A DNA stretch of 64,000 nt from Candidatus Binatus sp. (lineage in GTDB: Bacteria > Desulfobacterota > Binatia > Binatales > Binataceae). The stretch is taken from the NCBI RefSeq assembly GCF_030646925.1, contig NZ_JAUSKL010000062.1, positions 1-64,000 on the forward strand. Reading direction: 5' to 3'. The position numbers and the translations under genes are program-made. Each line of letters starts with the position of its first letter. Positions within the stretch are counted from its first letter, which is position 1. Below, in pieces: positions 12,417-62,017 of this stretch. The notes under the pieces were generated by a model. That model was not told the origin of the DNA. It was given only the letters and a program-made list of their open reading frames with translations, and ran no database searches.

Positions 12417-12435
12417 ATTTCAGTCTGAAACGACG

Positions 12436-37069: not shown

Positions 37070-38388
37070 TGGAAACACCTGACGGCGGCATCGATCCGGC
37101 CGCACCGACGCGGCAGCGCGGCGCGATAGTAATCGGCGGCGACTATCGCGGCTTGGGCGTGGTGCGGAGTCTCGGCCGGCGCGGAATCCCGCTGTGCGTG
37201 GTCACCGACGAGTACCGTCTCGCGGGACTTTCGCGTTACGTCGATCGCCGTCTCAAGTGGCCCGCAAACGAGTCTGATCAACTTAAATTTCTGCTCGACC
37301 TCGCCGCGCATCGCGGGCTCGCCGGATGGGTACTGTTCCCCACTGGCGACGAGACCGCGTCGCTGATTGCGCGAAACCATGCCTGCCTGGCGAGCCGTTT
37401 CACCCTCACCACTCCGCCGTGGGAGACGCTGCGATGGGCCTACAACAAGCAGTTGACTTACCGCCTCGCGCGCCAACTCGGCATCCCGAGCCCCCTTACC
37501 TGCTACCCGAAGAATCGCGAGGAGCTCGTGCGGCTTGAATGCTCCTTCCCGATCATCCTGAAACCCGCCCACAAGCGGAACCCGAGCCGCTTCACCCGCG
37601 ACAAAGCCTGGCTCGCCGCCGATCGCGACCATATGCTCGCCCTTTACGACGAGGCCTGCACCATGATCGAGCGGGGCGCGATCATGCTCCAGGAATTGAT
37701 CCCGGGCGCGGGCGCCTCGCAGTTCTCATTCGCCGCGCTATGCGCCGAGGGTAAGCCGCTGGCGTCGCTCGTCGCCATCCGGCAGCGCCAGCATCCGCTC
37801 GATTTCGGTCACTCCAGCTCGTACGTCGAGTCGATCGAGCAGCCCGAGGTCGAACGGCTCGGCCGCAGCGTCCTTGGTGCAATCCGGTTCAACGGCCTGG
37901 CGGAGGTCGAGTTCAAACGCGACCCGCGCGACGGCATCTTCAAGCTGCTGGACATCAACCCGCGCGTGTGGGGATGGCATACCCTGGGGGCGCGGGCCGG
38001 CGTCGATTTCTCTTACCTGGCGTGGCAGCTCGCCAACGGTGTCACGCTCAACGAGGCGCGGGGACGCGCGGGCGTGCGCTGGATGCGCGCGATCACCGAC
38101 GTCGCAGCCGCGGTGGAACAGTTTCGCGCCGGCCACTTATCGCTGCGGGGCTACCTGCGCTCGCTGCGCGGCCCGCTCGAGTTCGCGATCTGGGCGCCAG
38201 ACGATCCGCTCCCATCGCTGTGCGAAATTCCGTCGCTGATGCGCACGAACTTCAGCATCCGCCGCACCCTCGCTCGCCCTGATTCCGCGGCAGTCCGCCC
38301 GCGGGGAACTGACCCTCAGGTTTTGCCAAGGGGGGCAGATTTAATCGATGACGCGAGCGGCCTTCATTCAGATTCGCCGGTCGCGTGA
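37069..38388 (+). CDS. ATP-grasp ligase-like protein
   Basis: 439 residues. The N-terminal pre-ATP-grasp fold (AIVIGGDYRGLGVVRSLGRR) is followed by the ATP-grasp fold: NKQLTYRLARQLGIPSPLT, FPIILKPAHKRNP, IMLQELIPGAGAS and the metal-binding LLDINPRVWGW. Such ligases join a carboxylate to an amine or thiol; in polysaccharide loci they may attach amino acids or acids to sugars. Translationally coupled to the flavoprotein. Its 3' end overlaps the end of the convergent HTH gene by 21 bases. Confidence 0.8.
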   Translation: METPDGGIDPAAPTRQRGAIVIGGDYRGLGVVRSLGRRGIPLCVVTDEYRLAGLSRYVDRRLKWPANESDQLKFLLDLAAHRGLAGWVLFPTGDETASLIARNHACLASRFTLTTPPWETLRWAYNKQLTYRLARQLGIPSPLTCYPKNREELVRLECSFPIILKPAHKRNPSRFTRDKAWLAADRDHMLALYDEACTMIERGAIMLQELIPGAGASQFSFAALCAEGKPLASLVAIRQRQHPLDFGHSSSYVESIEQPEVERLGRSVLGAIRFNGLAEVEFKRDPRDGIFKLLDINPRVWGWHTLGARAGVDFSYLAWQLANGVTLNEARGRAGVRWMRAITDVAAAVEQFRAGHLSLRGYLRSLRGPLEFAIWAPDDPLPSLCEIPSLMRTNFSIRRTLARPDSAAVRPRGTDPQVLPRGADLIDDASGLHSDSPVA

Positions 38389-38616
38389 CGGAACGCGGCG
38401 GCGGCGCAAGAATTCTTCGATATCGTCGCTGCGAAAACGCATCATGCGGCCAATCTGATGGTATCGCAGTTGGCCGGTCTTGATGATCCGATAAAGAGTT
38501 CGCTCGTTGATTTGCAAGAGGCCCGATAGCTGAGCCACGGTGTAAAACTCGCGACGAGCCTCGAGCGATCCCGATAGTCTGCTTACCTTGCTGTCGAACT
38601 TGTCTTCCCGCCGCAT
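38368..38616 (-). CDS. Small excisionase/BldC-like HTH protein (copy 1)
   Basis: 82 residues from the ATG at 38616 (CAGGAAA upstream). A single HTH_17/MerR-like domain: FYTVAQLSGLLQINERTLYR, then IIKTGQLRYHQIGRMMRFR and DDIEEFLRRR. It closely resembles the proteins at 44036 and, less so, 63284. Such small proteins are labelled excisionases but many, such as BldC, are regulators. No integrase is nearby, so a regulatory role is more likely. Confidence 0.85.
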   Translation of the reverse strand: MRREDKFDSKVSRLSGSLEARREFYTVAQLSGLLQINERTLYRIIKTGQLRYHQIGRMMRFRSDDIEEFLRRRRVPSRDRRI

Positions 38617-39058
38617 TTTTCCTGCCTTTCGCCGACTGTTCTTACCGTCGGTGGCCGAAGCCGGAAGAACGACGATGTATGTTTCCAATCTTTCTCGACG
38701 CGCTCGGGAAGAACAGCGCATCGTGGAACGATTCAGCAGCGCGTCATCCAGTCGTTCGACTTTTCACTGGTGTCGTTACTTCAAACACTTTGAACTGGTC
38801 ACGCCGCGCCGCGACGCTATACACACAAGGGAGACTTCGCGCCACTTGAGACGAAACCATAAACCGTTAGTGAATCAAGAATCAACGATCACGGTCGCGT
38901 TTATGCCGAGGAACACCGGACGTCTAAAGGGACGACACTGCCGGATAGCATCACATGGTTCCATGCGCCGTGCTTGAAGATGCGGGGACTGGTCGCAACC
39001 GCGAAAGATCGCATCGTTCGACGCGATCGATCGTCGCAGGCTGAAACCGCGTCGAAGA
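38617..39058. other. 442-base gap with no gene seen
   Basis: No frame has recognisable content. It should contain the promoter of HTH copy 1. I see no hairpin or clear -35/-10 pair. Confidence 0.45.
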
Positions 39059-39948: not shown

Positions 39949-41295
39949 TCAGTTGGCGCGACGCTTTAGCCGGTAGACGTAGGGCAATCGGATCCACGCG
40001 GTCGTCAGATCGGTGTAGCGGACCGCGGCCCGGAGCCGCTTCCCGAAGTATCTCAGGGTATCGCCGCTCAGCAGATACTTGAGCCGGCCATACGCCTGCG
40101 CGTTGTTCAGTGCGAACAGCGCCCGATGGATTCGCCAGTTCGCCCGGTTGCGCACCACCGTATGCTGCGCCGAACTGGATAGCGTCTGCAGTCCGTACGG
40201 CTTGAAGAAACAAAGATGCAGCGGTTGCGAACTCATTATCAGGTCGGGCGGCCGCGAGGATTCGACCTCGCTGAACGAATCGGCCGGAATCGAAAACGCC
40301 ACGGTCTTGTTCAGATCGGGCAACTTCACCACCACCGCGCGCAGCATCCTGAGCAGCGGACTGGGATACTTCTCATGCAGATGCCGCACCATCAGATGGA
40401 ATGCTTCCTTGATCGGCGGCAACGGCATCGCCGCGGGGGTGTCGTAGGGAAGTTGGTCGATCGTCTCGTAAGCCGCGTCGTATTTTGCGAGCGCCGCCGC
40501 CGAATCGCATCGCGCCGATGAATCATAGGTGTCGCCGGGGAACAGGATCGCCACCCCGAGCGCGCGCTTCTGCGCGTAGTCCCAGACGTCGCGCGGATGA
40601 TTGGCAAAGGTGTTCATGTAGCGATTGTCCGCCAGTGAAAAACGCATCAAGCTCGCGAACGGGATGGTGACTTTCGCCCCCAGCGCCTGGTGATTGCGGA
40701 AGATCTTCTCCAGCACCGCCACCGCGCCGCGCCGCAAATGGGATTCGCGCGGCTGGAAGCCGTTATAGACCGCGAGCGAGAACTGGCTGAGCACCGTATC
40801 CACCCGCCCGAGGTCCGATCTCACCCGGCGGCAATCGGTCGCGTTGAGGCGCGAGTCATTGATGTTGAATAGAGTCCCTTCCGGCTCGATCACGCCGAGG
40901 CATGAATCAAGTGTGCCTGCGCTGTAGCAGTACACTGCGCTCCGCCCGCCGAGCGCGATCTGTTGCCGATGGCGCAGCACCTGGAAGTTCTGGTATCCGC
41001 ACTCCTTCAGCACGTGGAACAAGCGCTCCGCGTGATTGTCCTGGAACAGGATGGTGACGCGCCGCTTGAATTCAGCCGGCAACGAATTCAGGCTCGGGAC
41101 GTGAAAATGATCCGGATGAATATGCGAGATCCACAGATAGTCGATTCCGCCGAGCTTTGAGCGGTCAAACGCGGGCGGCGGGAACAGCGACCACGATTCA
41201 TTGAATACCTTCCCCGTAAGCCATGGGTCGGTCCACACTCGCATCCCGTGCGTTTCGATTACGACCGAAGCATGTGAAACCAGGGTGACTTTCAC
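39949..41295 (-). CDS. Metallo-beta-lactamase-fold hydrolase (UlaG-like)
   Basis: 448 residues. The N-terminal MBL domain has VTLVSHASVVIETHGMRVWT, DPWLTGKVF and the metal motif HIHPDH (about residues 58-63), in a layout like UlaG or NAPE-PLD relatives. A C-terminal extension of about 150 residues has no motif I know. It is the upstream gene of a pair with the GT2. In polysaccharide loci such proteins could hydrolyse or hydroxylate a sugar nucleotide or a lipid-linked intermediate; this is inference. Confidence 0.8.
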   Translation of the reverse strand: MKVTLVSHASVVIETHGMRVWTDPWLTGKVFNESWSLFPPPAFDRSKLGGIDYLWISHIHPDHFHVPSLNSLPAEFKRRVTILFQDNHAERLFHVLKECGYQNFQVLRHRQQIALGGRSAVYCYSAGTLDSCLGVIEPEGTLFNINDSRLNATDCRRVRSDLGRVDTVLSQFSLAVYNGFQPRESHLRRGAVAVLEKIFRNHQALGAKVTIPFASLMRFSLADNRYMNTFANHPRDVWDYAQKRALGVAILFPGDTYDSSARCDSAAALAKYDAAYETIDQLPYDTPAAMPLPPIKEAFHLMVRHLHEKYPSPLLRMLRAVVVKLPDLNKTVAFSIPADSFSEVESSRPPDLIMSSQPLHLCFFKPYGLQTLSSSAQHTVVRNRANWRIHRALFALNNAQAYGRLKYLLSGDTLRYFGKRLRAAVRYTDLTTAWIRLPYVYRLKRRAN

Positions 41296-41884
41296 GGGTT
41301 AACCCGCTTCTCTACTGAGTGCGATCTTTAGCATCCGCCGCTTTTATCCCTCGGCGTTGGCTGCCCGACGATTGTTTTGCATTTTTTTTTGGCCGCGACA
41401 CGACCCATCTAGCATGCATGAATTGATTTATTACTACTTAATTTGCAGCCTAACTGACCTAGCAAGCCAGAGCAAGAAAAATTAGCTCCAGCCTGATTAC
41501 AATGGCTAAAACATAAGAAAGGATAGTTCCAGTTCACGGGCGAGATCGTCAGTTTTGCCGCTCGACGGGTAGACACAAGCCGCTCTGGCGATTTCAGTCG
41601 GTGGGGAGTGACAGGGATATACCGGCATATCCTTCGATGGATACCGATAGACCCTGATAGTCTTGCAGCTCTAAAGAATGTTATAGATGAATTAGGGCTT
41701 GAAAAGACCATCTCGATCCGTTACTCCTTTCACCGTCGCCTGGTATAGAACGTCTGCCTGTCGCCTTCTCCGGTTGGCACCCTCTGACCGATTTCCGATG
41801 GCTGACTGTGTCGTTCTGGGCTCGCTAATCTGATTCGGTTTGCCTGGCTGCGTAGGAGACTCCTGCGGGGCAGGTGGAGGAGTT
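41296..41884. other. 589-base AT-richer gap, no gene seen
   Basis: Between the MBL gene start and the beta-helix remnant. It contains the MBL promoter region and T-rich tracts (CATTTTTTTT near 41380). A minus-strand frame here has no recognisable domain. Confidence 0.45.
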
Positions 41885-42180
41885 ATGCAAACAGCAAAGA
41901 TGTTGCGAAGGTGCAGAGTCTCGCTGCTGGTTGCCCTGAGCTTTTCGATAGCCGCCTTTGGCGCGGTGCCGGCTGCTGCCGATTGGTGCAGTTCGGGCCC
42001 CGACCCCGACCGTGACAACGACGCCGACGCCGGCCGCAACTCCGGTCCCGGCGCAGGCATTCTACGTCTCACCCACCGGCAGCGACGCCAATTCGGGCTA
42101 TTCGCGCACCGCGCCTGTGCGAGACCTCCATATCAACATCAACCGATCGCCTTCTCGCAGAGCGCTTGCGCGATTGTAAA
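41885..42180 (+). pseudogene. N-terminal remnant of a secreted parallel beta-helix protein (frameshifted, truncated)
   Basis: An ATG at 41885 with GGAGGAG upstream opens a good signal peptide (VSLLVALSFSIAAFGAVPAA). Soon after, near 41985-42000, the meaning moves to another frame: a Thr/Pro linker (PTPTVTTTPTPAATPVPA) and FYVSPTGSDANSGYS, the usual opening of right-handed beta-helix surface proteins. It then stops at 42179. A matching C-terminal end is found at 43664-43855 beyond an intact gene. Confidence 0.65.
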
Positions 42181-42444
42181 TGTTACATCCCATAGAGCAA
42201 CGGCCGGAATTCAGATGCCAAGATTTGACAATGATTGACGACCAAAAGTCATTTAAGGTCATATTTAGTCATGATGAGCGCTATGTAATATATTCAAATC
42301 GCTTTAGCACACCATCGCGACAAAACTGTTTGCTACTAAAACAAACTTTTTATAATCACATGCAGAGAGTTCAGGTCTTTGCGGATTGCAAGTTAGCTGA
42401 TCTGAGTGTCGGGCCTGGGCGAGGCGGTCACTTAACTCGCAAAC

Positions 42445-42466
42445 CTTTGAGTTGAACAACTCAAAG
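42445..42466 (+). promoter_or_regulatory. Perfect palindrome before the Ig/lysozyme-like gene
   Basis: CTTTGAGTTG and CAACTCAAAG are perfect arms around AA, ending 5 bases before the GAGGAGG ribosome site. It may be an operator or an mRNA hairpin that controls translation. Confidence 0.6.
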
Positions 42467-42487
42467 CCATCGAGGAGGCATATCTTA

Positions 42488-43612
42488 GTGGTTTCGAACA
42501 AAGCATGGTTTATTTCTGCAATCATGGCGTTGGTTCTTGTCCGTGGAGGCACCTCGTTCGCGCTGGTGTCGATCAACTCGCCATCCAGTGGCGCCACAGT
42601 GAGCGGCGTGGTGACGGTCAAAGCCCAGGTGGATCAGGCCTGGTGGTCCAAACTCTGGGTCGATTCAAGCGGGGTCGCCACGGCGCCAGTCGGCAATGTC
42701 ACATTTACTTGGGATACCACCAAAATTGCGGACGGCACTCATACGATGACGGTCAAAAGCTATGCCAAGAATAGTTCCACTCCTAACGCGTCATCGTCGA
42801 TTACCGTCACTGTCAAGAACCAGTCACCGATTGTGAGCGGAGACTATTTCACTACCTTGCGCGAAGGCGACCCGTTGCCCAGCGGGGCATGGTGCGCCTC
42901 ACACATTCCCTGGGAACCTGAGGTGGTGTCGCAGAACGCAGGGGCGAATAGTACCATGCCGACCGCGAGCCAGCTCGCCGCCTACGCGGCCAACGGTTAT
43001 ACCGCCAACTACTATAATGGCAAGTGGGCATATGCCCGAGTGGATGGAAACTATACGGGCACCACGGACATGATAATACGGTGGGCCGCCTGCAAGTGGG
43101 GAATCGATGAAGACATAGTGCGGACACAGTCGTCGGCAGAGCACTGGAACTGGCATCAGACCGACAGCGGCGGCGACAAGCGATACTCATATTCGCAATG
43201 CGTGAATGGCGACTTTACCAGTCTGTGGAATTTCATGTGTCCCAACTGTTGCTTTCAAACCTGGAGCATCTGGCAGACCAAGGTGTACTACAGCTGGCAG
43301 ACCTGGCCGATGATACGGGATTCCACGGCGTTCGCGGCGGATTTTCGTTATGCGGACCAGCGTGCATGCATGAACGGCGATCTGGCCGGCTATTTCGACC
43401 GCCGTCCGGGTCACAATGGCCACAGCTATGCAACTGACATCGCCAATGGCGATTTGAACACGATTCTTTGGGGCTGTATCGGCATGCATTTTTCCGGCGA
43501 TTGGTATGATGGAGATTCCAATAGCGGAGCGATTTGGTACATTGCCTCACTAAAGGGCACTCTCGCGGAAAAACCTTGGCACAGGTGGACCCAGGTAAAT
43601 TGGCCGGATTGA
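42488..43612 (+). CDS. Secreted Ig-like domain plus lysozyme/transglycosylase-like protein
   Basis: 374 residues from GTG at 42488, with GAGGAGG 9 bases upstream; TTG at 42452 is an alternative. Signal peptide (AWFISAIMALVLVRGGTSFA), then a bacterial Ig-like domain (INSPSSGATVSGVVTVKAQV to ITVTVK, residues about 30-110). The C-terminal half has IIRWAACKWGIDEDIVRTQ followed by SSAEHWNWHQ, resembling lysozyme-like SLT domains of actinobacterial proteins, with a Glu in the expected place, and WGCIGMHFSGDWYDGD near the end. It may cut peptidoglycan or the locus polysaccharide. It lies between the two ends of a broken beta-helix gene. Confidence 0.72.
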   Translation: MVSNKAWFISAIMALVLVRGGTSFALVSINSPSSGATVSGVVTVKAQVDQAWWSKLWVDSSGVATAPVGNVTFTWDTTKIADGTHTMTVKSYAKNSSTPNASSSITVTVKNQSPIVSGDYFTTLREGDPLPSGAWCASHIPWEPEVVSQNAGANSTMPTASQLAAYAANGYTANYYNGKWAYARVDGNYTGTTDMIIRWAACKWGIDEDIVRTQSSAEHWNWHQTDSGGDKRYSYSQCVNGDFTSLWNFMCPNCCFQTWSIWQTKVYYSWQTWPMIRDSTAFAADFRYADQRACMNGDLAGYFDRRPGHNGHSYATDIANGDLNTILWGCIGMHFSGDWYDGDSNSGAIWYIASLKGTLAEKPWHRWTQVNWPD

Positions 43613-43663
43613 GTGCAAGCTACTTAGCCAGCAATTCTGCCGATTGAACTCTGGGGCCAGTGA

Positions 43664-43855
43664 AGCGAGTTCAAAGGCCTATCGGTTCCGGCGATGTTCG
43701 CGTTGCTCAGTGCGGCATCGCCGGATTTTCACCTGCAATTGGGCTCGCCGTTGATCGATTCGGGGGCGCCGCTCGATTCCGTGACGACTGACTACGACGG
43801 AATGACGCGTCCCTACGGCAGGGGCTACGACGTCGGAGCGTTCGAGCGTCATTAG
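43664..43855 (+). pseudogene. C-terminal remnant of a secreted parallel beta-helix protein
   Basis: The frame encodes SPDFHLQLGSPLIDSGAPLD, then VTTDYDGMTRPYGRGYDVGA and FERH-stop. This is the standard last turn of right-handed beta-helix (choice-of-anchor Q-like) proteins. The frame has no start and is closed by a stop at 43661. It is most simply the other end of the remnant at 41885-42180, with the centre lost. Confidence 0.7.
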
Positions 43856-44035
43856 CGGAGGCGACGGCGGCCGAAAATCCGCTCCGCGTCACTTTCCGGT
43901 GGGAAATTGCGCGGGGCGGGCAATTTGAATCGTCCAAGGCAGATCCGGATGCCGGCGCTTAACGCAGCATCGCGTCGAATCGAGTCAAATGGCGAGTCCG
44001 ATTCGTCGATCGGCAATGAAGGGTCGGGGCTGGAT

Positions 44036-44308
44036 TCAGGCTTTCCGCAGACTCGCGGGAACGCGATGCTTCTGTAGGAAGCCCTCGACGTCGTCATGCC
44101 GGAAACGCATCATCCGGCCTATCTGATGGTACGGTAGCTGGCCGGTCTTCACCATGCGGTAGATCGTCATCTGGTTGAGCTGCAGGAGGTCCGCGAGCTG
44201 ACCGACTGTGTAAAACTCGCGCGAGCCGAAAGGACTGATCTCCGCGTCTTCGGAATAATCCGCATGCCGCATCTTTGGCGCCATTGGGCGAAGGTTATGG
44301 AAAGTCAT
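44036..44308 (-). CDS. Small excisionase/BldC-like HTH protein (copy 2)
   Basis: 90 residues if begun at 44308; in-frame ATGs nearer the domain exist at 44284 and 44272. HTH_17 domain: FYTVGQLADLLQLNQMTIYR, MVKTGQLPYHQIGRMMRFR and DDVEGFLQKHRVP. The recognition segment YHQIGRMMRFR is identical to copy 1, so both may bind the same site. It lies between the beta-helix remnant and the polymerase gene. The gap to the polymerase is 186 bases and AT-richer. Confidence 0.85.
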   Translation of the reverse strand: MTFHNLRPMAPKMRHADYSEDAEISPFGSREFYTVGQLADLLQLNQMTIYRMVKTGQLPYHQIGRMMRFRHDDVEGFLQKHRVPASLRKA

Positions 44309-44494
44309 GTTTTGCGGGGGCTACCGGAACAGACGATACTCTGCTTGAGCTCGGTGATCAATACTTAGTGCGACGCTTATGTACTATTTTATCCTACTGT
44401 TCTGTCGGTTATTCCACGATCGGAGACCCATGCAAGCCGCGAATCCACGTCTGACCAGCGATCTGGGCTTCGACGCGTCACGAGATGCGGCCCG

Positions 44495-45961
44495 CTACAA
44501 GGCGCCGAAGGTCCGCTGGATGGGTGTTGGAGCTGGGCTGATCGATCGCAGGCGGCCGGCGAGGTCGATGCTGACGGCGTCCTCGGCGGAATCGCTTTCG
44601 ATCGACAACAGGCGATTTTTCTCGCTCAGCGCCCAGATGAGCGCCAGCAACAAGCCCACGCTGTAGCGGCAGTCTCCCGCAGTGCTTTCGACCATGTTCA
44701 GCACCAGCACCGGCGCCGCGCCAATCAGGACGGCGTCTCTCAAGACCCGGGGAGCGTGGCGATCGAAGATCGCAAATCGGAGTGCCCGGAGGATGATGAA
44801 TGCCCACAGCAAGGTCGCCGGAATGCCCACGCCGACCGCTCGCGACAGGTATCCGTTGTGGAGAGAGCTGCGAGGACCCTCGTTCCAGATCTCTTCCCAG
44901 AGCGGAAAATAGCGGCTCTGAAAGATCTGGCCTTCGACCTCGTAGCCATAGCCAAGTACGGGGCGCTCCTTGATAGCGTGAATCACGTATCGCCAGATCT
45001 CTGTTCGTCCGGTGAGGCTCGCTACGTCACCGCGCATCACATAGTCGCGTCCACCCTCGAGGCGGGGAAGCACGACCGTCGCCGCGATGAAGAGAATCGC
45101 CGCCAGCACGACCGCACGCAGTCCCAGTCTGCTGATGCCGAACAGGATCAGGCCGACGCTGAGCGCGATTAGAGGCGAACGGGAATCTGCCATCACGTCG
45201 AGGACAATCGCGGCCAGGCTCGCGAGGACGATCAGAAATCGAGTACGCCTCGCGGCGGCCGGCCAGCAGATCACCCCGGCAGCCACCGTGGTGAGTGCAA
45301 TCTCGCCAATCTGGTTGGGACCGTTGAAGAGGCCGGCGAATCTGAGCATGCCGTTGTCGTCGAGCTTCCAGGTAATGTCGCTCGGGAGGACGATCAACGC
45401 CACCGCGGACGCGGCGATAATGATGCTCGAACCGATCCAGAAGATTCCAAACAGTTCGTAGATTTGAGCGTCGTCATCCGTGCTGGCCGTGATAGCCACA
45501 ATTGTCATCAGCAGCAGCGCCGCACTGATCATCCGGCCGAACGAATAGAAGGGATAGACGGAAAAGCAAACGGTGACCGCGGCCCAAATGAAATACATCG
45601 CGTAAAGTCTGAAGCCGCCCTTCTTCAGCAGGCCGGTTTTTGCAGCGGTCGAAACATAGGGCGCGCAGAACAGCGCTAGCATCGAGTAGCGCAGAATCGG
45701 GCGCACGGAGTCGTCGATCAGACTGACGGAAGCCATCGCTTCATTCACCAGCAACGGCAGCACCAACCATCGCGTGTGATGACTCGTGAAGTTGATGGCG
45801 CCAAGCAGGCCGAATGCGATCGCGACGGCGCCGGCCGCCGCCAGCGTGGACGGCCACCGCAGGCATACGAGCACGAGAAGCGCCGCGACCGCAAAAAATC
45901 CCGGGACGACCACGCTTGTGCCGAAAATACCGCCTCGCCGATCAATGTAGGTGCTTAGCAT
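44495..45961 (-). CDS. O-antigen ligase/Wzy-like polysaccharide polymerase
   Basis: 488 residues from the ATG at 45961 (or 497 from 45988). About 11 membrane helices with a large late periplasmic loop containing SLTGRTEIWRYVIHAIKERP and VLGYGYEVEGQIF, the O-antigen ligase/Wzy_C signature, and a LHNGYLSRAVGVG motif. It would polymerise lipid-linked repeat units in the periplasm. Last gene of the long minus-strand operon; overlaps the end of the previous gene by about 20 bases. Confidence 0.87.
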   Translation of the reverse strand: MLSTYIDRRGGIFGTSVVVPGFFAVAALLVLVCLRWPSTLAAAGAVAIAFGLLGAINFTSHHTRWLVLPLLVNEAMASVSLIDDSVRPILRYSMLALFCAPYVSTAAKTGLLKKGGFRLYAMYFIWAAVTVCFSVYPFYSFGRMISAALLLMTIVAITASTDDDAQIYELFGIFWIGSSIIIAASAVALIVLPSDITWKLDDNGMLRFAGLFNGPNQIGEIALTTVAAGVICWPAAARRTRFLIVLASLAAIVLDVMADSRSPLIALSVGLILFGISRLGLRAVVLAAILFIAATVVLPRLEGGRDYVMRGDVASLTGRTEIWRYVIHAIKERPVLGYGYEVEGQIFQSRYFPLWEEIWNEGPRSSLHNGYLSRAVGVGIPATLLWAFIILRALRFAIFDRHAPRVLRDAVLIGAAPVLVLNMVESTAGDCRYSVGLLLALIWALSEKNRLLSIESDSAEDAVSIDLAGRLRSISPAPTPIQRTFGAL

Positions 45962-47393
45962 CGGTTCTACACGACTCCCTGAGTTCAAAGGCCTTGGGCC
46001 GCGGACGACTTACTATCTCCTGCGCGATCTCTTCCAGCGACGCTGCTCGCAGGCGCTTGGCCGCGGCAAACGAGAGCACGCTATCGCTGTGAGTTCGCGT
46101 GCCTTTTCTGAGCGGCGGATAAGGCCATCGACGCATCCCGATCTCGTCGGGATGAACCACGACAATGATCGGCAGGTTCAGAGCGGCGTGGCTGAGCATC
46201 AGATCCCGGGAAAGCGACTCGCACGAGTAGCGGCGCAATACCGGAAAAACATTCGCAAACTCTTCTTCCAAAGGAACCGAACGATGCACAAACGAGGGAT
46301 AGTTACTCCACGAATTGCCGGGCGGGAGCGGACCCGCGACTGTCGCCACGAAGCCGGCTTGTTTAAGAAACGATAGCGCCTCCAGGCCGAAAGCTTCGAA
46401 CGGGAAAACCATGATGGGCTGGAAGTTGACGTCGAATCGGCGCGATATCCGTCCGACCATGAGGGCGCCCTGGCGCAGATCGTTCTCGAACTTGAGCGGC
46501 CCGCTATGATTGACGTGTCGTTTGAATCCGTGCCACACGATGCCGGTGTTGAACCGCTTCAGCATTTCGACGAAGCTCCGCGCCGGATAGAGCTGGTCGG
46601 GCGTCCACGCGAAGTCAACGTGCGCGCGATGGAATCGCGACTCGACATGCTCCAGCCATCGGCGAAGGTTACCTGAGTTGAGCAGATCAAAATTGGCGGG
46701 GCGGTCGTCCATGGTCAGGTTGAACGCCGGCCGCGCCGAGGGGCTGACGCCGGCGGCTATCCTGATGCTTGCTAGAGGGCCTAGCTCGCGATAGCGCTTG
46801 GCAGGGTTTGCCAGGCGGTAGAGAATCGGCGTATCCGGCGAGCCAGCCGGCGCATCCGCCAGCAAGTCGCAGATCACGTATCCCGCACCGCACCTGATCG
46901 CGAACAGGAAAGGCGCGCATTCACCGCTTTCGAACTGCGCACTCGCGAGCACCTGCCACTGGTCGGGGATGCCGCGCGCGGACGGCAGCAGGAATTCGCC
47001 ACCGGAGTTCTCGCCGTGCAGAACCTCGGGCATTGGCCATCGAGCCTCGATTCGATAGGCCGTCGCCCTGCGATCCTTCACATAGAGGAAGGTCGCATCG
47101 ATTAGCGGCGACAAGGTGCACTGCTGCGTTCCGTCGAAGCCGCCGCGAATATAGACAACCGCTCCCGCCTTGGCCGTTTCGCGCAATCGCACGAGCTGAT
47201 CGGGGCCTAGGTAGCGCAAGGTTCGGTAGCTTAGCGCCAGCATCGCTTTGCCAGGTTTCGGGCCGGCGAACTCGAGCTGCTCGTCCGGGTCGCATCGTAT
47301 GCAATCGAACCCGAACAGATATGCGTACTGCGTCGCCATCGTGGGCAACTTGCTATCGCTGGAATCGCGAACCAGCCAGCAGGACCTGCTCAT
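45942..47393 (-). CDS. NodB-like polysaccharide deacetylase-related protein (divergent)
   Basis: 483 residues. The first 220 residues form a domain I do not recognise (VVYIRGGFDGTQQ; GAGYVICDLLADAP). From about residue 225 a NodB-like barrel is suggested by FNLTMDDRPANFDLL (Asp pair), IVWHGFKRHVNHSGPL (histidines) and MVFPFEAFGLEALSFLKQAG. This would be a de-N-acetylase of the growing polymer or a relative with lost activity. Placed between the polymerase and the nucleotide-sugar dehydrogenase. No signal peptide is seen. Confidence 0.6.
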   Translation of the reverse strand: MSRSCWLVRDSSDSKLPTMATQYAYLFGFDCIRCDPDEQLEFAGPKPGKAMLALSYRTLRYLGPDQLVRLRETAKAGAVVYIRGGFDGTQQCTLSPLIDATFLYVKDRRATAYRIEARWPMPEVLHGENSGGEFLLPSARGIPDQWQVLASAQFESGECAPFLFAIRCGAGYVICDLLADAPAGSPDTPILYRLANPAKRYRELGPLASIRIAAGVSPSARPAFNLTMDDRPANFDLLNSGNLRRWLEHVESRFHRAHVDFAWTPDQLYPARSFVEMLKRFNTGIVWHGFKRHVNHSGPLKFENDLRQGALMVGRISRRFDVNFQPIMVFPFEAFGLEALSFLKQAGFVATVAGPLPPGNSWSNYPSFVHRSVPLEEEFANVFPVLRRYSCESLSRDLMLSHAALNLPIIVVVHPDEIGMRRWPYPPLRKGTRTHSDSVLSFAAAKRLRAASLEEIAQEIVSRPRPKAFELRESCRTDAKHLH

Positions 47394-47408
47394 ACCGTTG
47401 TCCGGATC

Positions 47409-48251
47409 CTACTCCGCTCGCAGCGCGGGCTGGCTGGCGAGATCAAGCTGCTCGGCCGTGCGCGCGTTGGAAAGCAGGACCGCACTTAGCAGTGGAGAAT
47501 CGGCGACCTTCAGAAGCAGGTTTATGTTCGGGACCACGCAATGACCGCCGATAAAGCCCGGGTAATAGCTCGTGCGCGGCAGGAAGTCGACCTCTTTGAA
47601 GAATTCAGTGATCTCGCGGTAGTCGGCGCCGACACTCGATGCGTAGCGATTCAACTCCTGCGCAAACGCGATCAGCACGCCGAAGTAAGTCGTTTCCGCA
47701 AGCTTTGCGAGTTCCAACTCCTCGGGACTATTCATTCGTTCGGTCTCAAGCCCTGCCTCGTGGAAGTGAGCTTCCGCCTGCTCGAGCGCCCTGATGTCCG
47801 AGCTTGCGACGAACTTTCGATAGTGGCGAAGCGCCGCCGCCATCTCACTATGCTTGCCGCGCACCGGACTGTAGCAGACGCTCCGTCCGGTCATCTGTTC
47901 CACCATCCGGGTGGTGCCCGGAATCACCGTGCTATTGATGATGGTCAACTCCGGCGTGAAGCGGCCTATATAAGCGGCGGCGGCCTCGACAAAGCTTTCG
48001 CGATCGCGAAATGGAAAGCAGATGTGCATGACGCCTATCGAATCGTCAAAGCTAAGAGGCTCGAGATCATGGCGCAGCACGGTTCCTTTGGTATCCAGGG
48101 CCTGAGCCAGCGGCCCGCCTACTTCACCGATGCCGACCACCAAGGTCTTTCTTTCAGTCACTATTGTTTCTCCGTGGTTTGCGGTTCCTTCCACCGGTCT
48201 TACCTTGCGGCGAGAGCTTCCGTTGCTGTCTGAATTGGTTTGCATCGGCAC
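47409..48251 (-). CDS. Short nucleotide-sugar dehydrogenase-like protein lacking the C-terminal domain
   Basis: 280 residues from ATG 48251; GTG at 48161 with GGAG upstream is an alternative giving 250. It has a Rossmann site LVVGIGEVGGPLAQAL, the STVIPGTT turn, the central helix ELAKLAETTYFGVLIAFAQE with the conserved Lys, and the catalytic cysteine in GFIGGHCVVPN. UDP-glucose and UDP-ManNAc/GlcNAc dehydrogenases are about 430 residues and continue with a UDP-binding domain that is missing here. It may make the uronic acid used by the wbp-like genes upstream, or be a diverged oxidoreductase. Confidence 0.75.
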   Translation of the reverse strand: MPMQTNSDSNGSSRRKVRPVEGTANHGETIVTERKTLVVGIGEVGGPLAQALDTKGTVLRHDLEPLSFDDSIGVMHICFPFRDRESFVEAAAAYIGRFTPELTIINSTVIPGTTRMVEQMTGRSVCYSPVRGKHSEMAAALRHYRKFVASSDIRALEQAEAHFHEAGLETERMNSPEELELAKLAETTYFGVLIAFAQELNRYASSVGADYREITEFFKEVDFLPRTSYYPGFIGGHCVVPNINLLLKVADSPLLSAVLLSNARTAEQLDLASQPALRAE

Positions 48252-48288
48252 ACCTTTCCGTCCTCAACCTTGATGGATTCGACATCTC

Positions 48289-49527
48289 TTAGTTCTTTCT
48301 TGCGATCTCTTCGGGATCGAGCCGGAGTAACGAGCTGCTAGCGAGTTTCGAAAGGTCCCGGTTGCGCGCCCGTTCAGGCAGGACCGAGTCGATCGCATCG
48401 AAGAAAACATCGCGCTCGTGATCCCAACTTAGCGTTCGAGCAGCTTGTCGCGCGCGGCGGGCCAGGGCGCTTCGCCGCTCAGGATGGTGATAGAGCAGCT
48501 CGATGGCCGCGGCGAGCTGGCCTACGTTGCCGGCCTCGAAGTACTGCAGAGCATCGCCCGGGAAGTAGTACTCGATGGTGCGGAGCCGCGCGCAGATGAC
48601 CGGAATTCCCAGGATCATGTATTCCAGCAGTTTCACCGGAAGCATCAACTGGGTCGCTTCGGTAGCGCGATTTGGCACTAAGCCGACCGACACCTCGCCG
48701 AGCATCGAAGGCAAAGCTTCAATAGGAACCGGCGGCTTGAATGTTACCAGGCCGTCAAGCTTAAGCCGCTCCGACAGAGCCTTGACCTCGGCTAGATGAT
48801 CCCCTTCACCGATGATGAGCAGCTTGAGGTCGGCCAGGCGCCCGCGCAACAGGTCGATCGCTTGCAGCGCTATGTCCAGCCCCAGGCGGCTGGTAACCGT
48901 GCCATGACAGACGATACTCATCTCCCGCTCCGCCGCTCTGACTCTCGAGCTTTGGAAGATCGCGGGGTCGGGCGAGTTCGGAACTACTCGAATCTTGCGC
49001 TCGGGTATCCCCGCCTGGGCAAGCCGATCGGCGTGCGGCTTGTGTACCGCCAGCACCCTATCGGCAAGGCTGGCGCAGAAGCGTTCTTCCAGCATCAGCA
49101 GGCGCGCTCCCAGCGCACCGCGCCTGCCGCCGAACTTGTCGCGGTATAGTTCCGGCATCGTGTCATGGACGTCCAGCACCAGGCGCGCGCCGAACGCGCG
49201 CAGCGGCAGAGCGCTTAGAATCGCCGCGTCGGGCATCGTGCAGACTATCGCGGCGTCATAGCGGCCTCGCGAATTAAGCCTGAGCGCGGTGGCAATCGCC
49301 CGCATGAAAAATTCGAGGTAGCTGCGCACGTAGCGGCTGCGGCTGTCGCCGCGATAGCGGGCTATCTTCAGGCCAACTACGTTGACTCCGCGGTGCACGC
49401 CACTTTCCGCATCGTCGAGACTGATCACGTCGACTGAGTCGCCGCGCGCCGCCAACGCTTCCGCGTGGCGCCTCACACGCCCATCACGCAGGTAGTGGGT
49501 ATATGCGACTATCAGTATTCTCGACAC
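48289..49527 (-). CDS. GT4-type glycosyltransferase
   Basis: 412 residues from GTG at 49527, chosen for GGAG 6 bases upstream. GT-B fold: ILIVAYTHYLRDGRVRRHAE, LDVHDTMPELYRDK, RVVPNSPDPAIF, SIVCHGTVTSRLGLDIALQA, LKLLIIGEGDHLAEV and VGLVPNRATEATQLMLPVKL with the E-x7-E type nucleotide-sugar region, here EATQLMLPVK-L-LE. Retaining cytosolic transferase adding a sugar to the lipid-linked repeat. Overlaps the deacetylase end by 16 bases. Confidence 0.9.
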   Translation of the reverse strand: MSRILIVAYTHYLRDGRVRRHAEALAARGDSVDVISLDDAESGVHRGVNVVGLKIARYRGDSRSRYVRSYLEFFMRAIATALRLNSRGRYDAAIVCTMPDAAILSALPLRAFGARLVLDVHDTMPELYRDKFGGRRGALGARLLMLEERFCASLADRVLAVHKPHADRLAQAGIPERKIRVVPNSPDPAIFQSSRVRAAEREMSIVCHGTVTSRLGLDIALQAIDLLRGRLADLKLLIIGEGDHLAEVKALSERLKLDGLVTFKPPVPIEALPSMLGEVSVGLVPNRATEATQLMLPVKLLEYMILGIPVICARLRTIEYYFPGDALQYFEAGNVGQLAAAIELLYHHPERRSALARRARQAARTLSWDHERDVFFDAIDSVLPERARNRDLSKLASSSLLRLDPEEIARKN

Positions 49528-50741
49528 TTGGATCTCCATGTAAGGAGGCGCTCGGAGCTTAGACGGCGTACTGCGGCTCCTTCGACATCCGGGCCCGAAA
49601 CGATCGGTCTGCTCGATTTGACCTCGAGTCTCATTCGCGCGCGGCGCTGCCACCAGGCAGCCACCTCGGACGGCAGAGCGCGCCACGAGTTTCGTAGTTC
49701 ACCAAGTTGCTTGAGCAGCTCTTCGTACTCGGCCAGGTAGGGCTGATGACCGTAGTAGTCAGGATGAATAAGCGTGAGGATCATACCGCCGACCGAAGCG
49801 ATCCAGCGCGCCTTGGAGGTCCAGATCGGAAGAGCGTCGCGCCGCAAGAGATGAAGCAGGGTGTGATCCTGCGGAAGCGTGTAGGGCAACTCCACCATCC
49901 GGCCCAGGAAGAAAGGAAAGAGGCTACAGCAGCCGCCAGGTTGTGGTTCATAAGGGTCGGTATCCGAGAACGAGGAGTCAAAGTCGAAGTCCAGTTCCTG
50001 CAGCCATTCCAGCCGGCGCAAGGTCGAGGGCGATCGAAAGCCCCGCAACTCATGCTCGCGGGCAATCGATTCCAGCTTTGGCGCCAACGCCTGAAAATCT
50101 TCGAAGCTGCGGAACAGGCGTCCATCATGACTTAAGCCATGCGCGCCGATCTCGAAACCGCGCCTTCTAAGCTTCTCCATCCGCGGCCAATCGATCTTGT
50201 ACTGAGCCAACGGTAGGTTCCAGGCCGATCTGAAACCGTACTTCTCCTCGATGTCGGCGATAGCTTCGATACGTTCGAAGCCGCGCCTGCTCTCGACGTC
50301 GTGAGTAAGAACGATGCAGCAGTCGTAGTCGTCGGGCCAGAAGCCCAGGTGCCAGCCATCCTTGCTTTGCAGCTCTGCGAGGCCGCTATCGAGCCACTCG
50401 CTCATTAGCCGAAGCAGCGCAGGCTCATATGGCCACCCCGGAAAGTCAGGACGTTCGCTGGACCTGACCAGTATCGAGTGCAGATAGTGGCGCACGCTGG
50501 CCGGCAGCAGGTGCTTGACTGGATAGTACACCTGCAGGCCCGCAGGAGGCCGGCGCATTTCCTCAGGCCGGTACTTTTCGAGCAAGTAGTGCTCGGCCGC
50601 TACCTCGCTCGCATAGTTGTGCGCCGCGAGCGGAAGCCGCCAGTTCTCAGGAAGCTTCCAGAAAGCGAATGCGTCGTTCGCAACGTCTCCGACGCTTTCG
50701 ATCTCGCCGGCAGTAAAGCTCAGTTGCTTGCTCAGCGCCAT
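49512..50741 (-). CDS. Polysaccharide deacetylase family protein (NodB homology)
   Basis: 409 residues. The catalytic set is visible as IVLTHDVESRRG (Asp about residue 148), AHGLSHDGRLF (two His) and GFRSPSTLRR, with the late LTLIHPDYYG His. The N-terminal 125 residues are an extra domain. It likely removes acetyl groups from HexNAc units. It has no signal peptide, so it may work on cytosolic lipid-linked units. Overlaps the upstream GT2 by 10 bases. Confidence 0.85.
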   Translation of the reverse strand: MALSKQLSFTAGEIESVGDVANDAFAFWKLPENWRLPLAAHNYASEVAAEHYLLEKYRPEEMRRPPAGLQVYYPVKHLLPASVRHYLHSILVRSSERPDFPGWPYEPALLRLMSEWLDSGLAELQSKDGWHLGFWPDDYDCCIVLTHDVESRRGFERIEAIADIEEKYGFRSAWNLPLAQYKIDWPRMEKLRRRGFEIGAHGLSHDGRLFRSFEDFQALAPKLESIAREHELRGFRSPSTLRRLEWLQELDFDFDSSFSDTDPYEPQPGGCCSLFPFFLGRMVELPYTLPQDHTLLHLLRRDALPIWTSKARWIASVGGMILTLIHPDYYGHQPYLAEYEELLKQLGELRNSWRALPSEVAAWWQRRARMRLEVKSSRPIVSGPDVEGAAVRRLSSERLLTWRSKCREY

Positions 50742-51595
50742 ATCGTCTGCAACCCCAGCAATCGGCGATGCTGATGTCGCCGGATAAACCTGATCAGGGT
50801 CTTATCGGCAGCGCGCTTCTCGTGATTCAGATAACCGCGCAAGTAACCAGCCATTAGCAGTACCGATTGCAGTACATATGGCCGGTCAGTAATCCGGTAC
50901 GCGGCGCGCGCCAGCATGAACAGCGGCGAGTATCCAGCCTGGTAGGCCGCGATTCCAGGCGCCAGCCCTGCGCGCCAACGTCCACCTGCGGCGCCGGCGG
51001 GGCGATGATGGCGGGCCGTGATATGGGAGAAGCTGCGGGTCGTGAAGCCAAGCATCGACGCGCGAACTTCATCGATAGTATCCCAGCCAAGGCCGCGGGT
51101 AAGTCCACCTATCGCGCGAAAGCATTCTCTCGAATACATCTTGGTCGCGCCGCGAGTATGAAAGCCGGGAGCGCCCGCCATCTGCCATCCATCCGCGCAG
51201 GGCTCGTAAAGAACAGCACTCGCGATACCGAGCGTGGAATCGCGCTCGAATTCCCCCATCATCGATTCCGCCAGTTGCGGGCCGAAACTTAGATCGGCGT
51301 CGAGCCGGAAAATAAAGTCCAGGCTGTTTCGTTCTTCCGCAGAGAGAAACCTCATCACCACGCCTTCGCCGCCGGGTTCGCGCGGCCCTTCACGGTTAGT
51401 GTGATGAACACGAATCCACGAATACTTCGCAGCCGCTTCATCCATGATGCGAGGCGTCGCGTCGGTCGAGCCATCGTCGATCAGGATCCACACCTCGGGA
51501 AGCCTGGTTTGCGCCACCATGCTTTCAATCAGGCCTGGAAGAAATGATTCCTCATCGCGCGCGGGCGTGACCGCCAGATAACTATTCTGTCTCAT
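50732..51595 (-). CDS. Family 2 glycosyltransferase (paralogue of 39059)
   Basis: 287 residues from the ATG at 51595, which overlaps the FemAB stop (ATGA). GT-A motifs YLAVTPARDEESFLPGLIES, ILIDDGSTDATPRI and FIFRLDADLSF. The acceptor part has FHTRGATKMYSRECF and GLGWDTIDEVRASML. By eye about half the positions match the GT2 at 39059, including the C-terminal FIRRxQxRRLL pattern. Confidence 0.92.
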   Translation of the reverse strand: MRQNSYLAVTPARDEESFLPGLIESMVAQTRLPEVWILIDDGSTDATPRIMDEAAAKYSWIRVHHTNREGPREPGGEGVVMRFLSAEERNSLDFIFRLDADLSFGPQLAESMMGEFERDSTLGIASAVLYEPCADGWQMAGAPGFHTRGATKMYSRECFRAIGGLTRGLGWDTIDEVRASMLGFTTRSFSHITARHHRPAGAAGGRWRAGLAPGIAAYQAGYSPLFMLARAAYRITDRPYVLQSVLLMAGYLRGYLNHEKRAADKTLIRFIRRHQHRRLLGLQTIWR

Positions 51596-52671
51596 ACGAT
51601 GTACTGATACAGCATCGAGCCTAGTAGCCGCGTTACTGAAAGCGGAAGACGGCGCCACACCATTGATAACCTTAGTTGAGAGTCGGCAAGCACCTCAGGA
51701 CTTACATGCGCCGGAACCTGCGGCAGATAGGAGTACGGAAGCGGATGCGGCTTCGCACCCATCTCCTTTTTGAAGCGGCTAAGGCCGGTGTTGCGAGTAT
51801 CGGTGCGGCCTAGATGCATGAACCGGCACTGCTGCGCATACTCAGCCAGGACAGCGGCTACCAGCCGATGATTCGCACCCATCGGAGTTGGTTGAATTCT
51901 CGCGGACCATTTGTAGTGGATGTCCTCGCCGTCGCGCAGCAGCACGGTCGCAGCGATCGCCATGCCTCGCTGCGATACGGACCACACCTCAAGGTTGTCG
52001 TTAGGGGCGAACGCATCGTAAACCGCTTGAAAGAAGCGCCACGGCTGCGCAGGTACTCCCAGTCGACGGCGCGTTTCCAGCGCGAGCCGATAAAATCGCA
52101 TGAGACCAGGCAGCCCGCGATCAACCTTGATTGCAAACGATCCTTCGCGGCCGCGATGCAGTTGTCGTCTGAAGTTGGATCCCAATCCGCGCTCGATGAG
52201 GCTAAGCGGCCGGTCAAGGTCAAGCATCCAGTCCGCAAAGCAGGTCGCTTTCCGCCATGGCTCGGGCGCACTCCAACCTCTGATTTCGACCAGGCCCTCG
52301 GCCGCCAGGCGCGATTGAGCGATAGCGGCGAGAAGCTGTTCGCGCGCACCCTCGTCGCGCGCCAGCGGAGGCGACGAATCGGAGCACGGAAGGCTGGTCC
52401 ATTTGCGAACGAACGGATTCTTTCCACGCGCGAAGAGGCATGCGGCTACAAGGCGACCGTTGCTATCGCGCAAAGTGGCTGCAACCATTTTGAATCCATA
52501 AGCGTTAGTGAGAGCCGTAAGCCAGCGGTCACTCTGATAGATTGTCGCCTCCGGACACAAACTGGCCAATCGAGCCCACTCGGGCCGAATCTGCACAAAC
52601 GGTTCGATCGCCAGTTCCAATCCAGACGAATACAGCGCGCCGGAATCGATTCGTTGCGGTAGCGTTGTCAA
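51592..52671 (-). CDS. FemAB-like GNAT acyl/aminoacyltransferase
   Basis: 359 residues from TTG at 52671, which overlaps the Wzx stop and has GGAGG 7 bases upstream; the open frame further upstream is not coding. FemAB/GNAT features: YQSDRWLTALTNAYGFK, RRQLHRGREGSFAIK, VLLRDGEDIHYKWSARIQ and the C-terminal HLGRTDTRNTGLSRFKKEMG. This matches FemAB-related proteins of exosortase-type polysaccharide loci. It probably attaches an acyl or aminoacyl group to the polymer. Confidence 0.85.
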   Translation of the reverse strand: MTTLPQRIDSGALYSSGLELAIEPFVQIRPEWARLASLCPEATIYQSDRWLTALTNAYGFKMVAATLRDSNGRLVAACLFARGKNPFVRKWTSLPCSDSSPPLARDEGAREQLLAAIAQSRLAAEGLVEIRGWSAPEPWRKATCFADWMLDLDRPLSLIERGLGSNFRRQLHRGREGSFAIKVDRGLPGLMRFYRLALETRRRLGVPAQPWRFFQAVYDAFAPNDNLEVWSVSQRGMAIAATVLLRDGEDIHYKWSARIQPTPMGANHRLVAAVLAEYAQQCRFMHLGRTDTRNTGLSRFKKEMGAKPHPLPYSYLPQVPAHVSPEVLADSQLRLSMVWRRLPLSVTRLLGSMLYQYIV

Positions 52672-54125
52672 TTGACCGCCTCCGGAGTTATCGCACCCTG
52701 GATCAAATCCCGCGCAGTGTTCATTCCGAACCACACGAAAGTAAGGAGGCAAATCAGAACGATCAGCGCCAGAGCCATCAGGCCCTGAACCTGGAGAACA
52801 CCTACCAGCAACACGCCCGCGATTGCACCCAGCCCGCACACAAGCGCCAGCTTCATTCCGCCACCGCAGGCCCTCAGCCAATCGAGCAAGCTCATCTCGA
52901 TAAGGCGGCCCGCCAGCAACTGCCCGCCAATACTCACCAACGCTTCGACTGCGCTCATCGCGATGCAGACTCCAATTAGTCCGAACCTGACCGTACTCGT
53001 GACGGCTAGCACGACTAGTACGAGACGCGCGCCGTGAAGGTAGATGTCGAACGAAGGGTGGTCCTTGGTATAGTAGATGGATCCGATGGCAAGCCGCAGT
53101 CCGGCGAGGCTCAGGCCGACCGCTAGAATCCTGAGCGGCGCCGCGGCTCGTATCCATTGATTCCCGTAGAGACCGGCCAGCACGTATGGCGCCGCGATCG
53201 CCGTACACGTCATCATCGGCAAAATCAGCTTTGCAAGGTAGCCCGTAAACTCGCGATAGGCGCGCGCCAGTGCGCGGTTGTCGTGCTGAAGCCGGCAGAA
53301 GGTCGGCAGCGTGACGCGTCCGGCGACGTAGTAAAGGCGGTCAGGTACGAAACGCAGAAGATCCCAGGCTATCACATAGTAGCCGAGGGTTTGACTACCT
53401 AGCAGGCGTCCGACCAGCAGGTAGTCAGCGTTGCCGGATACAACGCCAAGCACTCGGCCACCCCAGACACTGACCGAGAAACGAAACAGCTCGCGAGCTG
53501 CGGAAAGTCTCGGAAGCCGCCTCGGCAGGAATGGCTCGCAGCACCAGACCACCAAGCCGTGAAAGGTGAGTCGTGCGCCCAGCGCCGCTACCAGGCTCCA
53601 GCGCGGAAGCCCGAGCCAGATCATAAGCAGCGCGCCGCACAAAAAGGCCAGCTCGGCCGAGAAATCCGCCGTGGCCAGGGCGCTGAACCTTAGTTGCCGC
53701 CGCAAGCGAGCGTTCGCGATCGATGACGTCGCATCGATTAGCACCGGGATCGCCAGCAGGGTAAGTGAAGTCGTCAGCATCGGCATCGCCATCGCCGACG
53801 CAATCAGTCCCGCAATCGCGCAAAGCAGCGTCGCTGCTCCAGCAGACAGGACAAGATTGAGCCACCACGCCGTGGACTCATGGTCACTGTCGAGTTCCTT
53901 GCGCTGGATAATCGCGTCCGGGATGCCAGCGTTGGCGACCATTCCGACCAGAAGCGTCGAAGTGATCAATATTCTCAAGATGCCGAAATCGGCTGGCTGC
54001 AGAGTTCGCGCCAGGAAGATAAAGCCTCCGATGCGAATTCCCTGTGAAAATACTTCGGCCAGCACGTTGACTCGCACGTTGCGCACGAACGCTGCCCAGA
54101 GAAATTCGTCGGCGGCTTCCGCCAT
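52668..54125 (-). CDS. Wzx/MOP-type polysaccharide flippase
   Basis: 485 residues from the ATG at 54125; a TTG at 54146 overlapping the previous stop would add seven. Twelve to fourteen membrane helices, with the MOP start FSQGIRIGGFIFLARTLQPA and DFGILRIL. It flips undecaprenyl-linked repeat units. Works with the Wzy-like polymerase (44495), copolymerase (60465) and Wza (62018). Confidence 0.92.
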   Translation of the reverse strand: MAEAADEFLWAAFVRNVRVNVLAEVFSQGIRIGGFIFLARTLQPADFGILRILITSTLLVGMVANAGIPDAIIQRKELDSDHESTAWWLNLVLSAGAATLLCAIAGLIASAMAMPMLTTSLTLLAIPVLIDATSSIANARLRRQLRFSALATADFSAELAFLCGALLMIWLGLPRWSLVAALGARLTFHGLVVWCCEPFLPRRLPRLSAARELFRFSVSVWGGRVLGVVSGNADYLLVGRLLGSQTLGYYVIAWDLLRFVPDRLYYVAGRVTLPTFCRLQHDNRALARAYREFTGYLAKLILPMMTCTAIAAPYVLAGLYGNQWIRAAAPLRILAVGLSLAGLRLAIGSIYYTKDHPSFDIYLHGARLVLVVLAVTSTVRFGLIGVCIAMSAVEALVSIGGQLLAGRLIEMSLLDWLRACGGGMKLALVCGLGAIAGVLLVGVLQVQGLMALALIVLICLLTFVWFGMNTARDLIQGAITPEAVN

Positions 54126-54142
54126 TCTCAAGTTCTCTTTGA

Positions 54143-55576: not shown

Positions 55577-55579
55577 GGC

Positions 55580-56716: not shown

Positions 56717-56722
56717 CTGCGC

Positions 56723-58329: not shown

Positions 58330-58330
58330 A

Positions 58331-61982: not shown

Positions 61983-62017
61983 GATGCGCTCCCCCCCGAA
62001 AGGGTTAAGTGAAGCCC

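Follow-up and report, generated by a model that had tools for sequence, protein, structure and literature searches.

Beta-helix gene pieces within an exopolysaccharide locus

The window, i.e., the whole stretch of 64,000 nucleotides analyzed here, covers bases 1-64000 of a contig of 76,257 bases that belongs to a genome of 4.58 Mb in 126 contigs, and this genome groups with MAGs of Candidatus Binataceae. At positions 41885-43855, two pieces of beta-helix coding sequence lie on either side of an intact gene for a different secreted protein, named LYZ in the following, and this gene site falls within a Wzy-type exopolysaccharide locus. Both genes on which the Wzx/Wzy assignment was based scored above cut-off, namely a Wzy_C gene (69.6 bits vs. 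31.7) and an initiating gene of the EPS_sugtrans type (353.2 bits vs. 295.55). Flippase models reached up to 153.5 bits against 52671-54146, which is under their equivalog cut-offs, and the models TIGR03007 (109.9 vs. 278.85) and TIGR03015 (206 vs. 324.5) both stayed below cut-off for a locus of the XrtA/PEP-CTERM type. The site is preceded by a gene for a metallo-beta-lactamase-fold protein (PF13483; 39949-41295, reverse strand) with a 78% match in the same-genus genome G002, and it is followed, all on the reverse strand, by a gene for an HTH_17 or excise-family DNA-binding protein (44036-44308), which has a 65% match immediately 3' of LYZ in the relative G023, a gene for a Wzy_C/O-antigen-ligase-like membrane protein (44495-45988; PF04932, 3.2e-19) and the remaining exopolysaccharide genes (45942-62770): nucleotide-sugar dehydrogenase-like, glycosyltransferases, flippase-like, EPS_sugtrans, DegT-like and Wzc/Wza-like. 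The DegT, Wza and some other labels in the latter stretch are assigned by resemblance. Four HTH_17 genes or gene parts, all above the Pfam cut-off, occur on the 76-kb contig near secreted-protein and exopolysaccharide genes (window 38368-38721 and 44036-44308, reverse strand; contig 63299-63460 and 75336-75515, forward strand).

The left piece (41885-42179, forward strand) starts with ATG 41885 behind GGAGG and opens with a signal peptide; the frame changes near 42000 and continues with PTPTVTTTPTPAATPVPAQAFYVSPTGSDANSGYSRTAP to a stop at 42177-42179. A Thr/Pro linker and a first beta-helix turn complete this piece, which reads FYVSPTGSDANSGYSRTAP between the linker and the stop at 42177. The right piece (43664-43855, forward strand) carries the last beta-helix turn, its translation ending in DFHLQLGSPLIDSGAPLDSVTTDYDGMTRPYGRGYDVGAFERH ahead of the stop, and it matches the NCBIfam model choice_anch_Q (NF041518) with 48.2 bits vs. 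a cut-off of 25 (9.3e-13). The first-pass annotation had recognized the signal peptide, the linker and a frameshift on the left as well as the last beta-helix turn on the right, and these features are borne out by the sequence, by paralogue matches and by choice_anch_Q.

An intact homologue, which the same annotation had proposed to seek in relatives, was found by whole-genome search on the same contig, just past the window: a paralogue at contig 63982-65853 encodes 623 residues with a signal peptide, an Ig-like domain, a Thr/Pro linker, a beta-helix and a choice_anch_Q end. Its Ig-like domain has no Pfam match and resembles that of the inner gene (BLAST, 2e-7). Downstream of this paralogue, contig 67112-73937 holds more large secreted-type genes, one of which (68414-71998) has long Thr/Pro-rich stretches and another (72474-73937) is by appearance of a different beta-helix type. 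Comparison with the paralogue gave E values of 4.4e-8 (61%) for the left and 5.0e-13 (56%) for the right piece, and frameshift-tolerant alignment gave scores of 123 and 144 as compared to maxima of 43 and 34 in 12 shuffles each; judged by these alignments, the likeness of both pieces to the paralogue is more than chance. The left core falls on paralogue residues 209-231 and the right piece on residues 577-623, in the same order, about 22 kb from the paralogue; therefore, about 345 middle residues are missing. About 1 kb of beta-helix gene is gone, and about 1.5 kb now separates the pieces. Beta-helix homology ends on the left at about 42128-42146 and begins on the right near 43679-43712, which places the junctions, and it did not rise above shuffles in 42240-42460 and 43600-43690. 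No direct repeat of at least 12 bases pairs both junctions, and shorter duplications were indistinguishable from chance, so that the target-site repeats looked for at the borders are not there at this length.

The flanks of LYZ are the ruins of one or two beta-helix genes of one rare subfamily, which was detected in four of 41 family genomes (E up to 1e-30). More than 25 bits to choice_anch_Q were obtained for the right piece, its own paralogue and the proteins of G023:C28, G023:C9 and the locus L132. The related G002 protein did not match this model, so choice_anch_Q is not found in every member of the subfamily. The right piece does not favour its own paralogue (score 143) over the G023:C9 protein (149), and comparison of each piece with six intact proteins did not separate an origin in one gene from an origin in two. 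A structure model of the G023 beta-helix protein, made from two sequences, reached a pLDDT of 41. The beta-helix proteins of G023:C28 and G002 carry a Big_7 domain, and the paralogue its Ig-like domain, between the signal peptide and the linker. An Ig domain is absent from the left piece, whose frame change sits at this place, so what reads as a frameshift may have been left by an internal deletion.

The inner gene and its predicted lysozyme-like fold

LYZ (42488-43612, forward strand) encodes a signal peptide, a Big_7 Ig domain and a lysozyme-like domain, the last assigned from a structure model. Its start is likely GTG 42488 rather than 42452, because a ribosome site, GAGGAGG, is located at 42472-42478. 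A perfect 9-bp inverted repeat with a 4-nt centre (42445-42466; CTTTGAGTT-GAAC-AACTCAAAG) is present just 5' of this site, in a single copy on the contig. LYZ is the only long frame between the beta-helix pieces. The first-pass annotation had described a different secreted gene with its own ribosome site and no transposase, and no transposase was found in the block: eight short frames on both strands had no Pfam match above cut-off (best an antisense frame with E 0.07, 13.4 bits vs. 21.1). The GC content of LYZ is 0.551 and its GC3 0.668, as compared to a GC3 of 0.727-0.78 in four other genes of the contig. Between LYZ and its copy in the relative G028 the nonsynonymous distance is 0.31 with saturated synonymous sites, which fits a gene under constraint.

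Big_7 (PF17957; residues 39-101) scored 27.2 bits vs. a gathering cut-off of 24.1, and nothing else in Pfam matched the LYZ protein above cut-off; its lysozyme-like domain had no match in Pfam or NCBIfam. The Pfam family SLT (PF01464) was likewise absent from the window protein, and seven of 21 aligned members matched it at E up to 1 (best 3.7e-4); these weak matches also point towards a lysozyme-like fold. For the fragment encoded by 42812-43609, modelled with an alignment of 69 domain sequences (that of the window and 68 from related loci), a pLDDT of 90 and a pTM of 0.90 were obtained. Foldseek gave no significant match in the PDB, the best being a phage endolysin at E 0.12, and a search of solved structures with a sequence profile gave none. 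In a second look with VIA-align, MltE and MltC came out on top at Z 9.5, with goose lysozyme at 8.6; since a best Z of about 14 is common for mostly helical models that lack a clear relative, a Z of 9.5 is not proof, and the lysozyme-like fold of the inner domain is likely, not proven. The MltE match extends over 125 residues at an rmsd of 2.5, and all 50 rows shown were lysozyme, muramidase, lytic transglycosylase, endolysin, chitinase or GH124 chains.

Family-wide, a near-invariant Glu at a helix end and an S-x-G-x-x-Q stretch were observed. The candidate catalytic Glu of the window protein is the near-invariant Glu 110 of the fragment (codon 43139-43141), and it falls on E64 of MltE provided that no gap precedes it in the aligned ranges, which begin at 84 and 38. 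At four of 39 near-invariant columns the window protein has a different residue; these include the position that follows the candidate Glu and the Gly of the S-x-G stretch, and just three of the 69 rows differ at more columns. Therefore, the activity of the window LYZ is putative and perhaps altered. The inner protein would be exported, and it probably cleaves glycan strands.

Leader, relatives and origin of the arrangement

The AT-rich leader ascribed to the inner gene is real: 42181-42451 has a GC content of 0.424 vs. 0.608 for the contig. By alignment, 42215-42365 (forward strand) is homologous to the leader of the beta-helix paralogue at contig 63676-63829. Bases 42223-42354 and 63685-63816, the latter located before the paralogue, are 63% identical over 134 columns with a score of 34, as compared to a null mean of 12; this score was reached in none of 500 and none of 2000 shuffles, and the best of 24 other upstream regions aligned with the leader of the paralogue scored 23. 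By eye, both leaders contain three GTCAT-type repeats spaced 10 bp. A sequence model of the leader, which was built from its own two sites so that only its absence elsewhere is informative, found just these two sites in the window's genome, one weak site in 39 other genomes (E 0.0115, in G022) and none in G028 or G023. A 24-base motif pattern was made from its only two matches and shows only that there is no third.

The possibility that the leader contains a known RNA such as a riboswitch was considered and rejected: at gathering score Rfam matched nothing in the window or in the locus L033, with two chance-level matches in 41200-44500, and the two leaders fold differently (z-scores -2.25 and 0.08), which makes a DNA element likelier than an RNA. 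A sigma-70 scan returned one site, which lies in the leader, vs. a shuffle mean of 2.1 and gave no support. The left piece's own upstream region was compared with that of the paralogue as well (score 22; 1 of 2000 shuffles) and was dropped, since a score of 23 came from an unrelated upstream region on this contig.

A first scan for relatives of LYZ with the single protein found none. The family survey confirmed 170 places, the best 80 of these 170 corresponding to 79 distinct loci (L080-L158), and beyond Binataceae the family occurs in Ktedonobacterales, Thermogemmatispora, Archangium, several actinobacteria, Acidimicrobiales and Woesebacteria, among others. Within the family Binataceae, LYZ was found in 17 of 41 genomes including that of the window, and in none of the six other genomes of the genus (completeness 85-98%, with G002 at 85%). 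In the LYZ tree (28 rows, 244 columns), the window copy groups with that of G028:C191 at 100/99 inside an eight-row clade (100/99). LYZ looks like a newcomer at the window site, because it is absent from the six genomes of the genus, its closest copy belongs to another genus (100/99) and its GC content is lower. The flanks of the G028 copy showed no similarity to the window in the approximately 300 bases upstream and 250 bases downstream that were compared. In G029:C85, LYZ has as its divergent neighbour a homologue of the metallo-beta-lactamase-fold gene flanking the window site.

The locus that resembles that of the window is G023:C28 (L051, the same stretch as L096). There, an intact Ig-beta-helix gene of 608 residues is followed by a separate LYZ of 291 residues without an Ig domain, its first possible start less than 20 bp after the beta-helix gene, so that beta-helix and LYZ are separate neighbouring genes. 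Behind LYZ follow an HTH_17-type gene on the opposite strand, two genes absent at the window place, and then Wzy with another five exopolysaccharide genes, ordered as in the window; 5' of the beta-helix gene the window was not matched and no metallo-beta-lactamase gene was found. The G023:C28 copy of LYZ falls outside a 19-row clade with 97/96 support and is therefore not the orthologue of the window LYZ. Among the relatives examined, none had the same two pieces, an intermediate state or the same junctions.

The first-pass annotation had suggested an insertion or a gene replacement inside a surface-protein gene. A replacement agrees with a LYZ that is complete and newcomer-like; a clean insertion does not agree with the loss of approximately 1 kb, the lack of target-site repeats and a leader homologous to that of the paralogue, whose promoter would stand on the wrong side of the left piece if a single gene gave rise to both pieces. 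The best reading, to which we assign a probability of roughly 0.45, is that a newcomer LYZ frame replaced a resident beta-helix frame behind the resident's leader. The site would then be a slot for gene turnover in the exopolysaccharide locus: a resident gene for a secreted choice-of-anchor Q beta-helix protein, sister of the 63982-65853 copy, would have lost nearly its whole frame, and a newcomer gene coding for signal peptide, Big_7 and lysozyme-like domain would have taken over its AT-rich leader and, presumably, the promoter activity residing there. Of the old gene, the final 50-60 codons would persist behind LYZ. A resident-type leader before the newcomer and a beta-helix tail behind it are the remains expected of a frame replacement. 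The left piece would be what remains of the 5' end of a beta-helix gene, truncated and frameshifted, and this gene could be the same one or a tandem neighbour: as the leader that is homologous to that of the paralogue lies 3' of the left piece, the left piece need not share a gene with the right one. Moreover, the same-genus genome G003 (L039) has two tandem beta-helix-type genes (8857-10437 and 11050-12729), typed by a YYFSPSGSD start and a DxGAY/W end and without a Pfam beta-helix match, so two neighbouring genes are possible, and the left piece may stem from a second beta-helix gene that was truncated. Against the replacement, the leader could have travelled together with LYZ, and the difference in GC content and the patchy presence of LYZ suit loss in relatives as well as gain.

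Travel of the leader with LYZ is what an insertion would involve, in which a block of both entered one beta-helix gene whose middle 1 kb or so was lost in the same event, leaving the pieces as its two ends. This rather unlikely course of events would require the smallest number of gene copies, and it is in line with the agreement of the pieces in order, strand and subfamily and with the resemblance of 42215-43612 to a complete expression unit; however, target-site repeats were not found, and a leader known otherwise only before the paralogue, apart from the one weak G022 site, would be an odd passenger. The neighbouring genes of G023 at the matching place and the tandem pair of G003 speak for a further explanation that requires no insertion at all: LYZ, kept by selection, stood between two beta-helix genes, and deletions consumed both neighbours. 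The lost stretches do end near the LYZ unit on either side, but the G023:C28 LYZ is not orthologous to that of the window, the six other genomes of the genus have no LYZ, and none of the loci examined has this beta-helix subfamily on both sides of LYZ; we consider such an erosion unlikely. Finally, an assembly or binning artefact, i.e., a chimeric contig of unrelated strains, might be suspected in a genome of 126 contigs with an estimated contamination of 3.54%. It is highly improbable: such an artefact would require two false joins within 1.5 kb of each other, the downstream gene order agrees with that of a relative, and LYZ is tied to this genome by the leader that it has in common with the paralogue of the same contig.

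Association with Wzy and comparison with known systems

Sixteen of 28 LYZ copies, including that of the window and five fused ones, lie at most 6 kb from a Wzy homologue (15 of 27 without the window's). Two of the 28 are found at most 6 kb from this beta-helix subfamily, namely the window copy, by its right piece, and that of G023:C28. This tally counts copies above 60 bits in 25 loci, three of its contigs being shorter than 11 kb and showing a limited neighbourhood, and it excludes shorter or split matches (G008:C10, which is beside Wzy, G008:C28, G008:C2, G028:C129, G025:C119, G025:C152, G025:C277, G034:C392, G033:C140, G009:C13 and a second match in G009:C29). In five Binataceae genomes (G030, G017, G033, G009 and G023:C25), Wzy_C and LYZ are encoded in one frame (L055, L059, L067, L069, L012 and L052, of which L055 and L069 are the same gene). 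These fusions sit in two separate parts of the LYZ tree, therefore either two fusions occurred or one that was followed by splits. Furthermore, Wzy_C and a beta-helix share a frame of 948 residues in G003 (L039:5786-8632, reverse strand), and in an Acidimicrobiales MAG (L132:969-4145, forward strand) a beta-helix with a choice_anch_Q end, a Thr/Pro linker and LYZ are combined in one frame. A hydrophobic, signal-peptide-like stretch was recognized by eye before the second domain in two fusion proteins, so the fusion products might split apart after export.

The likely function predicted for LYZ is glycan cleavage on the envelope side coupled to Wzy, given that five relatives have the two fused. 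Its target would be the polymer of the locus itself or peptidoglycan along the export path, with LYZ acting together with Wzy in a glycan-cutting role formerly shared with the beta-helix protein. The fusions of Wzy with LYZ, of Wzy with a beta-helix and of a beta-helix with LYZ lead us to propose a shared glycan task at this side of the envelope. Possible, though doubtful, is the broader idea that in Binataceae Wzy-type polymerases or ligases are partnered by a glycan-cutting module on the envelope side that can be exchanged, a LYZ domain or a beta-helix supplied in trans or fused, and that the window is a snapshot of exopolysaccharide retailoring in which one such module took the place of the other while the promoter was kept. 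If true, this would point to a coupling between the cutting of these polymers and their polymerisation or ligation. In the titles and abstract openings of mostly open-access literature, no Wzy fused to a lysozyme-like or glycosidase domain is described, and the part of PMC12419801 consulted contains nothing on a Wzy-LYZ fusion.

In comparison with known systems, the broken gene belongs with the choice-of-anchor Q proteins (NF041518), which are right-handed beta-helix proteins, and keeps their first and last turn only. LYZ resembles the lytic transglycosylases of the lysozyme superfamily, MltE and MltC, and goose-type lysozyme in its predicted fold, the candidate Glu and the S-x-G-x-x-Q stretch; unlike SLT lytic transglycosylases, the window protein has no SLT match, and the copies of its family are linked to Wzy and exopolysaccharide genes. 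The comparison thus reveals a lysozyme-like family in several phyla that in Binataceae is often located beside Wzy and sometimes fused to it. Gene loss and replacement within polysaccharide loci are common, and the event in the window is ordinary gene turnover; the triangle of Wzy, LYZ and beta-helix is the part worth pursuing. For the beta-helix side of this triangle, an analogy is offered by RbmB of Vibrio cholerae, described as a polysaccharide lyase of predicted beta-helix fold that is a product of the biofilm gene cluster and cuts the polymer of that cluster (PMC11637428). The likeness is one of predicted fold and of setting with a polysaccharide locus, and the window copy is broken. Wzy_C or O-antigen ligase-like proteins (PF04932) adjoin LYZ in the window, and in relatives some form fusions with LYZ or a beta-helix; unlike in those fusions, Wzy_C, LYZ and beta-helix are three separate genes in the window.
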